64,000 nt of DNA, taken from NCBI GenBank assembly GCA_013360915.1, contig JABWAT010000001.1:594981-658980 (forward strand), in the 5' to 3' direction. The notes under the pieces are model-generated. The model had not been told where the DNA came from. It saw only the letters and a list, made by a program, of their open reading frames with translations, and did no database searches. This document shows, piece by piece, positions 46,165 to 50,300 of the stretch. The number at the start of each line of letters is the position of its first letter. The first letter of the stretch is position 1. The position numbers were made by a program, and so were the translations under genes. The stretch comes from Bacteroidota bacterium. GTDB taxonomy: Bacteria > Bacteroidota > JABWAT01.

Positions 46165-46725
46165 TCAGGAGACAGGATCGGCAGTCCGGTTTGAATCCGG
46201 ATTGGTTCCATCCGGCTCCTCGGATTTCAAGCCTTTGTTCATAAAAACGATCATGAGGATGACTCCGATGGAAACGGCCATATCTGCCACATTGAAAATG
46301 GGCCAGCGTGACATGTAGATGCCAAGGAAATCAATATCGGGGATATCCACATCGATGTAATCGACCACCCGTCCATGAAACCAACCATCCAGTTGAAACC
46401 AGACCCCGTAAAAAACCCGGTCAATCAGGTTACCAATGGCCCCGCCCAGAATCAGCGCCACCGGAATCCGCTGATAGAGCGATTCCTGACGGATCTGGAA
46501 GAAGTAATAAATCAGACCTATTACAATGGCAATGGTCAGGAGCGTAAAGATGAGCTTGTTACCAGGATCAATACCAAAGGCCATTCCAGGATTTTCGATG
46601 TATTTCAGTCGGATAACATCCCCGAATACAGGAATTTCCTGGAACAGAACCATCTGGATCCTGACCACCTGTTTGATGATCTGATCGAGTAGGGCAATGG
46701 CGAGAATCAGCCAGATCAGGTGCAA
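46165..46725 (-). CDS. lspA: Lipoprotein signal peptidase (signal peptidase II)
   Basis: 186 residues with four helices. GAIGNLIDR and RVVDYIDV carry the first catalytic Asp, and WPIFNVADMAVSIG carries the second (N-x-A-D). A loop of about 15 residues (WFHGRVVDYIDVDIPDIDFLG) is longer than in E. coli, as often seen in Bacteroidota. The start is TTG at 46725; the same frame has the TAA stop of dksA three codons before it, and no ATG precedes the first helix. It cleaves prolipoproteins, such as the two predicted in this window (7618 and 11487). Confidence 0.93.
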   Translation of the reverse strand: MHLIWLILAIALLDQIIKQVVRIQMVLFQEIPVFGDVIRLKYIENPGMAFGIDPGNKLIFTLLTIAIVIGLIYYFFQIRQESLYQRIPVALILGGAIGNLIDRVFYGVWFQLDGWFHGRVVDYIDVDIPDIDFLGIYMSRWPIFNVADMAVSIGVILMIVFMNKGLKSEEPDGTNPDSNRTADPVS

Positions 46726-46734
46726 GGCGAACGG

Positions 46735-47136
46735 TTACCCTTGCTTAGATTTACAGGGAACGCAGATCTGCGAGTGAGGGACGGCCTCTAAACGACCTTT
46801 TTCCATGGGTTTGCCACAGACTTTGCAGTAACCATAAGTACCTTCCTGCAAACGCTGAACAGCCCGCTCGAGGTAGTCGAGAATTTTTCCTTCACGTGAG
46901 GCAAAAAGAAATGTCTTTTCCCGTTCCATGGCATCGGTACCCTGGTCAGCCATGTGAAGCGAGTAGGTTTTATTCTCGTAAGTTCCATCCTGTGACGATT
47001 CGGCCAGTTGTTCGCGCAGGAGATTGAGGTCTTCCAGAATTTCGTCGCGTTTTTTATTGATGACGTTGTAGAAGTGTTGATAATCTTCCAGCGTCCAGTA
47101 GCCTTTCAGGTCGGGTTTGAATGTAATGGTCGACAT
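46735..47136 (-). CDS. DksA/TraR-family zinc-finger protein
   Basis: 133 residues. A helical N-terminal part (YWTLEDYQHFYNVINKKRDEIL and REQLAESSQDGTYENKTYSL) is followed by a C-terminal zinc finger CKVCGKPMEKGR with the second pair in QICVPCKSKQG. DksA-type proteins bind RNA polymerase and act with ppGpp, which the rel gene in this window could supply. The acidic tip differs from E. coli DksA, so the assignment is to the family only. It lies between ileS and lspA. Confidence 0.9.
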   Translation of the reverse strand: MSTITFKPDLKGYWTLEDYQHFYNVINKKRDEILEDLNLLREQLAESSQDGTYENKTYSLHMADQGTDAMEREKTFLFASREGKILDYLERAVQRLQEGTYGYCKVCGKPMEKGRLEAVPHSQICVPCKSKQG

Positions 47137-47153: not shown

Positions 47154-50100
47154 TCAGGCTTCATTTTTTTGAAGCGCAAGTTTACAATGTTCACTGTCAA
47201 TTTGCAACTCCCTCAGAATCCCGGTTTCCTCCACCTCGAACAGCAGGGTGGTGGCCAGAGTTTCCTTCATAATCCAGTCCTGACGCGAACGGATGGCACT
47301 GGTCAGACGGTCACTGGCTGAAACCCGGATGGTGATTCGGTCGGTAACTTCGAAACCGGAGTCTTTGCGCATGTTCTGAACCCGGTTAATAAACTCGCGG
47401 GCCAGACCTTCATCGAGCAGGTCAGGAGTCAGTTCGGTGTCAAGAGCCACCGTCAGACGACCTTCAGTTTCCACCAGCCAGCCTTCCACATCCTTCCGGA
47501 CGACTTCGATTTCTGCACTGGTGAGAAGTTCGTTGGTTCCGTTGACCATCACGTTCACTTCTCCACGTTGCTCCAGTTCGGTAAGCTGGGAGGGACTGAG
47601 CGATTTAACCGCCTCGGCCACTGCACCCATGGCCTTTCCGAACCGCGGACCCAGGACTTTGAAATTCGGTTTGGCCGATTTCTGAACAATCCCGGCGTCA
47701 TCTTCAATATAATCAATTTGCTTAACGTTTATTTCGTCCAGAATCACATCACGCACTTTATCCAGTTCCCTGCGCTCATGACGGTCCCGAACAGGAATCA
47801 AAATCCGCTTCAGGGGTTGACGCACGTTGTGACCGATTTTATTTCTCAGACGGAGCACAATGGTTGAAATCGTACGTGCCATCTCCATCCGATGTTCCAG
47901 ATCAGACAAAATCAGGGACTGATCAGCAACCGGAAAGTCGGCCAGATGAACCGATTCCCGCTTACCGGTCAGATTCTGATACAACCAGTCCGATGTGAAC
48001 GGCGACACAGGAGCCATCAGTTTCGTCAGGGTAACCAGACACTCATACAAGGTCTGGTAGGCGGCCTGTTTATCGTGGGTGCTTCCCTCTTTCCAGAACC
48101 GGCGCCGGCTGCGGCGGACATACCAATTAGACAGTTCATCCATGAAAATTTCCATTTCACGGACCGCCCGCGTGGGCTCGTATTCATTAAAGGCCGAATC
48201 GACCACCCCGATAACTGTATTCTTCCTCGAAAGAATCCACTGATCCAACTCGGTCCGCTGGTTTTCCGGAATGCGTGATCCCGTTTCATATCTGAAACCA
48301 TCGATGTTGGCGTACATGGCAAAAAACTGATAGGTATTCAGCAGGGTATTGAAAAACTTCCGCTGGGTTTCCTTGAGTCCGTCCAGATTGAATTTCAGAT
48401 TTTCCCAGGGATTGGAATTTCCGATCATGTACCAGCGTAAGGAATCGGCGCCATGCTGACTGATGATATCGAAGGGATTGACCGTATTTCCCTTGGTTTT
48501 TGACATTTTCTCGCCTTTCGCATCGAGAACCAGTCCGTTGGAAACCACATTTTTAAAAGCGACCCCATCAAACAGCATGGTGCCAAGCGCATGGAGGGTA
48601 TAGAACCACCCCCGGGTCTGATCGACACCTTCAGCAATGAAATCGGCCGGAAAATTCAGTTGAAACGTGTCGGTTTTTTCAAACGGATAGTGCCATTGTG
48701 CAAATGGCATGGCCCCGGAATCGAACCAGACATCGATCAGGTCGGGAACGCGACGCATGGTGCCGCCATCGGGTGCCGGCCAGGTGATCTGGTCAATGTA
48801 TGGCCGGTGAAGATCCAGTTCTTTATCATCGCCAATACCGGCCTTTTTCTTCAGTTCAGCCACCGATCCGATCACTTCCAGATAATCCGGATTTTTGTCA
48901 CTGACCCAGATGGGCAGCGGGGTTCCCCAGAACCGCTGGCGCGAAATGGCCCAATCCACATTGTTTTCAAGCCAGGTTCCAAATCGTCCTGATCCTGTGC
49001 TGGCAGGTTTCCAGTTAATGGTATTGTTCAGTTCAATCATCCGGTCACGAACCGCGGTTGTTCTGATAAACCAGGATTCGACAGGATAGGACATCAGCGG
49101 GGTTCCCTTCCGCCAGTCCATGGGATAGTTGTGAAGGTAGGTTTCATGCCGGTACAGATGGCCCCTTTCCTTCAGATTCCGGGCAATTACCTTATCGGCA
49201 TCCTTAAACCAAAGGCCTTTTACCAAATCGATTTTTTCCTCGAAGCAACCATCCCGGTTGATGGGATTGTACAGAGGAATGCCGTTTTTCTGTGTGACGT
49301 CATAGTCATCCGCACCGTAGGCTGGCGCCTGGTGAACAATTCCGGTTCCGTCTTCGGTGGTCACAAAATCGGCTGCGATGACACGCCAGGCACGTTCCTT
49401 CCCCACTTCTTTCAGTGCGTAATCGAACAGAGGCTGATAGGTTTTACCAACCAAATCAGTCCCCTTAACGGTTTCAATTACCTCATAGTCTTCTTTGATC
49501 ACCGAAAGCCGTGCCGCAGCCAACCAGTATTGCCGGCCATCCTCTTTCAACCGGATTTTCACATAGTCCAGTTTGGGATGAACAGCCAGTGCCATGTTCG
49601 AAATCAGAGTCCAGGGTGTGGTGGTCCAGGCCAGAAAAGACGTGCTTGCATCTTCATCGGTAACAAATGAAATATAGACCGAAGGATCCTGAACTTCCTT
49701 GTAGCCGAGCGAAACTTCATGAGAACTCAGAACCGTTGCAGACCCGGGAGAATACCACTGAATTTTATAGCCTTTGTAAAGCATACCCTTATCAAAAAGG
49801 GTTTTCAGTGCCCACCAGCAGGATTCAATATAGGAATTCTCATAGGTGATATATGGATCGTTCAGATCGACCCAATATCCCATCATATCGGTCAGCTGAT
49901 TCCATTGATCCTTGTATTTCAGAACGGACGATTTGCATCGGGCATTGTAATCGGCAATGCCGTATTTTTCCACCTGAGCACGTCCCTGTAGTCCAAGTTC
50001 CTTTTCCACCTCGATCTCAACCGGAAGACCATGAGTGTCCCATCCGGCCTTACGACCGACTTTAAATCCCTTTTGTGTCTTATACCGGCAAAATAAATCC

Positions 50101-50300
50101 TTCACCGTCCTGGCCATAACATGGTGAATACCAGGCCGGCCATTGGCAGTTGGCGGACCTTCGTAAAAGGTGAAATGAGGCCGGTTCTCACCAGTCCGTA
50201 AGGATTTCCGGAAGGTCTGATCATCGTTCCAGAAGGAAAGGATTTCCTTTTCAATATCGGTAAGCGACAAGCCATCGCTGATTTCGCGGAATTTCATCAT
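47154..50300 (-). CDS. ileS: Isoleucyl-tRNA synthetase, type 2, with GIHH signature
   Basis: 1048 residues. The class I KMSKS loop reads KMSKTKGN (about residue 595). The first signature, normally HIGH, reads GIHH at residues 57-60 (in PTANGRPGIHHVMA), so the first and third positions are swapped (GxHH). The start GRKAGWDTHGLPVE and the editing-domain segments VFVTTEDGTGIVHQAPAYG-like and the large C-terminal region fit the eukaryote-like IleRS2; no C-terminal zinc finger is seen. The GxHH form has been reported in some IleRS2 enzymes and tied to extreme mupirocin resistance. It heads a nine-kb operon. Confidence 0.95.
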   Translation of the reverse strand: MMKFREISDGLSLTDIEKEILSFWNDDQTFRKSLRTGENRPHFTFYEGPPTANGRPGIHHVMARTVKDLFCRYKTQKGFKVGRKAGWDTHGLPVEIEVEKELGLQGRAQVEKYGIADYNARCKSSVLKYKDQWNQLTDMMGYWVDLNDPYITYENSYIESCWWALKTLFDKGMLYKGYKIQWYSPGSATVLSSHEVSLGYKEVQDPSVYISFVTDEDASTSFLAWTTTPWTLISNMALAVHPKLDYVKIRLKEDGRQYWLAAARLSVIKEDYEVIETVKGTDLVGKTYQPLFDYALKEVGKERAWRVIAADFVTTEDGTGIVHQAPAYGADDYDVTQKNGIPLYNPINRDGCFEEKIDLVKGLWFKDADKVIARNLKERGHLYRHETYLHNYPMDWRKGTPLMSYPVESWFIRTTAVRDRMIELNNTINWKPASTGSGRFGTWLENNVDWAISRQRFWGTPLPIWVSDKNPDYLEVIGSVAELKKKAGIGDDKELDLHRPYIDQITWPAPDGGTMRRVPDLIDVWFDSGAMPFAQWHYPFEKTDTFQLNFPADFIAEGVDQTRGWFYTLHALGTMLFDGVAFKNVVSNGLVLDAKGEKMSKTKGNTVNPFDIISQHGADSLRWYMIGNSNPWENLKFNLDGLKETQRKFFNTLLNTYQFFAMYANIDGFRYETGSRIPENQRTELDQWILSRKNTVIGVVDSAFNEYEPTRAVREMEIFMDELSNWYVRRSRRRFWKEGSTHDKQAAYQTLYECLVTLTKLMAPVSPFTSDWLYQNLTGKRESVHLADFPVADQSLILSDLEHRMEMARTISTIVLRLRNKIGHNVRQPLKRILIPVRDRHERRELDKVRDVILDEINVKQIDYIEDDAGIVQKSAKPNFKVLGPRFGKAMGAVAEAVKSLSPSQLTELEQRGEVNVMVNGTNELLTSAEIEVVRKDVEGWLVETEGRLTVALDTELTPDLLDEGLAREFINRVQNMRKDSGFEVTDRITIRVSASDRLTSAIRSRQDWIMKETLATTLLFEVEETGILRELQIDSEHCKLALQKNEA

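Follow-up and report, generated by a model that had tools for sequence, protein, structure and literature searches.

A swapped class I signature in the single-copy type 2 isoleucyl-tRNA synthetase of a Bacteroidota bacterium and its near-fixation in the phylum

In the window considered here, namely, a stretch of 64,000 nucleotides from a Bacteroidota bacterium, the gene encoding isoleucyl-tRNA synthetase (IleRS) specifies GIHH where the class I signature HIGH is expected. This raises the question of whether the gene is an acquired mupirocin resistance determinant, a faulty or degenerate copy, or the housekeeping ileS of its lineage. As detailed below, the evidence points to a sole housekeeping ileS encoding a GxHH type 2 enzyme (IleRS2) inherited from the phylum ancestor, a reading to which a probability of about 95% is assigned. 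The present analysis established the motif and its place, assigned the enzyme to its type, found one gene copy in a conserved order and showed the swap to be near-fixed in the phylum.

The swapped motif and the type of the enzyme

The gene and the regions of its product relevant to this question are as follows:

47154..50300, minus strand: ileS2, encoding isoleucyl-tRNA synthetase type 2 of 1048 amino acids (TIGR00392, Pfam and structure matches)
50121..50132, minus strand: GIHH, codons 57-60, class I signature in swapped form, tip of helix alpha1 (motif scan, alignment, predicted helix 58-76)
48495..48509, minus strand: KMSKT, codons 598-602, the second class I signature, a KMSKS variant (motif scan; common to 21 of 93 relatives)
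49122..49709, minus strand: CP1 post-transfer editing domain, residues ~198-393 (match to the solved editing domains 1wk8 and 1wny; motifs)
47166..47750, minus strand: DUF5915, the C-terminal domain typical of IleRS2, residues 851-1045 (Pfam E 2.3e-62; control genomes)

In the translated ORF, GIHH occupies residues 57-60 in the context PTANGRPGIHHVMA. In an alignment of 21 sequences, these residues fall without gaps on HIGH of Escherichia coli IleRS1 and of Paenibacillus IleRS2, the aligned blocks reading GPPTANGRPGIHHVM in the window enzyme, GPPTANGAPHIGHVL in Paenibacillus IleRS2 and GPPYANGSIHIGHSV in E. coli IleRS1. G57, H59 and H60 do not vary across 23 homologues. The proposal of the preliminary description that GIHH replaces the class I signature proper is thus confirmed, and the enzyme carries the G/AxHH form by which GxHH-type IleRS2 is defined. 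A motif scan of the entire protein for an alternative H-x-G-H that could occupy the active site returned none, KMSKT at residue 598 being the only other signature motif detected. Among 93 relatives, the last position of this second motif varies (S in 54, T in 21, R in 14 and H in three). In an AlphaFold model (mean pLDDT 88.5; ligand-free and poor at residues 526-534), the helix beginning at the swapped motif spans residues 58-76, as expected for alpha1. The editing-domain signatures TTTPWT and GTGIVH are intact, and the alignment shows the EG motif (AEGVDQ) to be kept.

Several lines of evidence establish that the window enzyme is a type 2 IleRS. The protein matches the NCBIfam ileS model TIGR00392 (E 7e-297) and comprises the Pfam domains tRNA-synt_1, Anticodon_1 and DUF5915, corresponding to the class Ia core, the anticodon-binding domain and the C-terminal domain, respectively. 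DUF5915 was found in 8 of 14 genomes of a control panel, including those of Thermus, Deinobacterium, Bacteroides, Corynebacterium and archaea. The catalytic domain contains HYPFE, an IleRS2 signature (PMC4861432) that E. coli IleRS1 lacks. Conversely, hallmarks of IleRS1 are missing, namely, NKIL, Tyr-59 (the window enzyme reading PTANG and the E. coli enzyme PYANG) and the CxxC zinc site, represented in E. coli IleRS1 by CPRC and CGRC near the C terminus. Among solved structures, the top sequence match is 8c8w, a GVHH mutant of Priestia IleRS2 (958 bits, as compared to 398 bits for the best IleRS1), and the top folds are those of Priestia megaterium IleRS2 (8c8v, 8c9d, 8c8w and 8c8u), which outrank IleRS1. 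The Priestia enzyme (8c8u, 8c8v; GVHH mutant 8c8w) shares fold and domains with the window enzyme at 42% identity, yet naturally carries HVGH and exists alongside an IleRS1.

Copy number, gene order and distribution of the motif

Whether this is the only IleRS of the cell was addressed in the 3.65 Mb genome, which is 99.35% complete. A single IleRS-level match was obtained, both with the window IleRS and with E. coli IleRS1 as query. The remaining matches were pieces of 25-41% identity in long frames of ~500 to 910 amino acids, consistent with related class I synthetases, and DUF5915 occurred once. Downstream of ileS, two genes complete a block:

46735..47136, minus strand: gene for a TraR/DksA-type zinc-finger protein, second in the block (PF01258)
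46165..46725, minus strand: lspA, encoding signal peptidase II, third in the block (PF01252)

Gene order was compared across 80 named loci together with three of the same family, counting those with enough downstream sequence. Of 77 related loci, 56 had traR on the downstream side of ileS at a distance of at most 800 bases; for lspA, with a limit of 1600 bases, the count was 56 of 75. A search of Rfam gave no match near ileS. Single copy and conserved ileS-traR/dksA-lspA order together identify the window gene as the native housekeeping ileS. As such, the earlier suggestion that this ileS, seemingly the only one of the window and at the head of an operon, probably encodes the housekeeping enzyme holds, given the whole-genome search with both query types and the conserved block led by the gene. 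A record assigned to Parabacteroides distasonis 'plasmid 22' (NZ_OY725767.1) contains the same ileS-traR-lspA block with GIHH. By its label this appeared to be a mobile ileS copy, a view set aside since block order and GIHH favor chromosomal DNA mislabelled as plasmid, which the record probably is.

The frequency of the swap was determined in 395 genomes of the phylum, taken from named tree neighbors to be Bacteroidota in the broad GTDB sense. The degenerate pattern x-N-G-x-P-[G/A]-x-H-H was matched in 392 of these, including all 371 genomes that reached 90% completeness with contamination of 5% or less, and in each of the 171 genera sampled; the reversed-pattern control gave a mere handful of matches. 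By contrast, canonical HxGH in the context A-N-G-x-P was found in 0 of 395 genomes, a count to be read with the blindness of this narrow pattern wherever A is replaced, another residue (V in the relatives read) preceding N in about one third of the genomes. A broader pattern for canonical IleRS, A-N-G-x-x-H-x-G-H, matched E. coli ileS, and the phylum matches listed were mostly of the form A-N-G-P/K-x-H-x-G-H, which we take to be methionyl-tRNA synthetase (MetRS). That scan is hence uninformative on a second IleRS, for which the protein searches serve instead. In one genome (G114), two GxHH-pattern sites were seen (G114:C1:44012-44038 and G114:C10:603-629), possibly reflecting a second IleRS2 copy.

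Each of 93 related IleRS whose frame is clean likewise carries GxHH (81 GIHH, nine GVHH, two GLHH and one GMHH), these having been chosen with a pattern accepting either motif form and including relatives from Balneolota, Rhodothermota, Ignavibacteriota, Cloacimonadota, Zixibacteria, Calditrichota and Gemmatimonadota. Among relatives with a motif region readable in frame, only one locus (L085) departs, a frameshift garbling its reading. GxHH is thus the normal, near-fixed state of the phylum. The motif had earlier been described as a rarity, a view that does not stand, given that G/AxHH is the majority form, with 86 of 163 IleRS2, in the published set (Brkic et al., 2023; Nat Commun 14:5498; PMC10485003) and the counts given above. 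Whereas that study sampled 379 IleRS, the state was here counted over one phylum, in which it is essentially fixed.

Origin of the swap

Other origins of the swapped motif were weighed against these observations. MupA and MupB, encoded by plasmid-borne ileS2 of staphylococci, are also IleRS2 and confer mupirocin resistance, and the window protein scores 889 bits with the MupA model and 860 bits with the MupB model, as would befit a horizontally transferred resistance enzyme protecting the lineage against mupirocin. Such scores are, however, expected because all IleRS2 are related, and they lie far below the cut-offs of 1900 bits. MupA and MupB are, moreover, acquired second copies, whereas the window gene, whose product is 41% identical to MupA and falls under the family cut-off, is native, single and set in a conserved gene order, and its product groups in the tree with its own family and then with Balneolota. 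Acquisition of a MupA/MupB-like gene is therefore extremely improbable.

Equally negligible is the prospect that GIHH arose by chance or assembly error or marks a degenerate, inactive paralogue, since the swapped motif recurs throughout the phylum sample and in every related IleRS with a readable frame, while the window frame is open, all domains are present and the editing and KMSKS-type motifs are intact. A recent swap within the window lineage under mupirocin selection draws on the proposal of antibiotic pressure as a general driver of the exchange (Brkic et al., 2023; PMC10485003). Still, this too is highly unlikely, if marginally less so, since a motif near-fixed across the phylum and common to relatives in Ignavibacteriota, Cloacimonadota, Zixibacteria, Calditrichota and Gemmatimonadota implies that the swap is ancient here. 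Inheritance of a housekeeping GxHH IleRS2 from the phylum ancestor accordingly remains the preferred reading.

Expected mupirocin resistance and a possible transfer beyond the phylum

The preliminary description had linked GxHH to extreme mupirocin resistance, a link well established for other IleRS2. Exchange of the motif in both directions showed G/AxHH to raise the mupirocin Ki ~200- to 800-fold, with the Ki of 6.6 mM of the ALHH Deinococcus IleRS2 falling to 8.1 uM once the motif was made HVGH; structurally, a shifted helix tip in IleRS2 lets the third-position histidine replace the first, and this same histidine clashes with mupirocin (PMC10485003). IleRS2 can, furthermore, be the sole housekeeping IleRS (PMC10485003). 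The G/AxHH enzymes of that study, often the only IleRS of the cell, likewise have HIGH positions one and three swapped, and no structural difference from the window enzyme was seen.

By analogy with Brkic et al. (2023), the source for both the part played by H59 in catalysis and the expected strength of resistance, the window enzyme would charge tRNA-Ile via the usual two steps, with the tip of helix alpha1 shifted and H59 supplying the imidazole normally given by the first histidine of HIGH. Since H59 would clash with mupirocin, hyper-resistance is expected, with a Ki around mM. Streptomyces griseus IleRS2, from a different phylum, also carries GxHH, shows a Ki of 10 mM and rescues E. coli with its own IleRS blocked (PMC4861432). 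That enzyme is, however, described as lacking the glycine contact of the EG motif, a loss suggested to add to its resistance (PMC4861432), whereas the window enzyme keeps EG, such that its exact Ki could be lower. A literature search found no mupirocin assay of any enzyme from the window lineage and nothing usable on mupirocin MICs of Bacteroidota. On grounds of homology, an enzyme resistant to mupirocin is predicted for the lineage, as the preliminary description had foreseen, but as a feature shared across the phylum by inheritance.

Publication of the motif, its mechanism and the associated resistance dates from 2023, and the window case is ordinary. What the present counts usefully add is numerical: nearly all of the phylum carries the swap, so that these bacteria are predicted to have inherited a mupirocin-resistant enzyme, and surveys listing these ileS sequences as mupirocin resistance genes list a normal housekeeping gene. 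Given near-fixation across the phylum, it is conceivable, if rather doubtful, that mupirocin is not what maintains the swap, and that the phylum shares the lack of tRNA-stimulated AMP formation observed for S. griseus IleRS2, in which case all of it would depend solely on post-transfer editing.

The same GxHH IleRS2 was also observed at nine gammaproteobacterial loci (L056, L059, L060, L062, L063, L067, L075, L080 and L086) from Salinisphaera, Oceanococcus, Abyssibacter and metagenome-assembled genomes. IleRS1 was not found in the corresponding genomes, where the best match to E. coli IleRS1 was 30-32% identical in frames of 1065-1139 amino acids, values in keeping with a match to the IleRS2 just described and not to an IleRS1. 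In a quick tree that includes several compositionally biased taxa, the nine proteins form one group (SH-aLRT 92) within a Rhodothermota set of 100% support. This suggests, as a lead, that a single ancient ileS2 transfer from Rhodothermota-like donors may have replaced IleRS1 in Salinisphaera-type Gammaproteobacteria.
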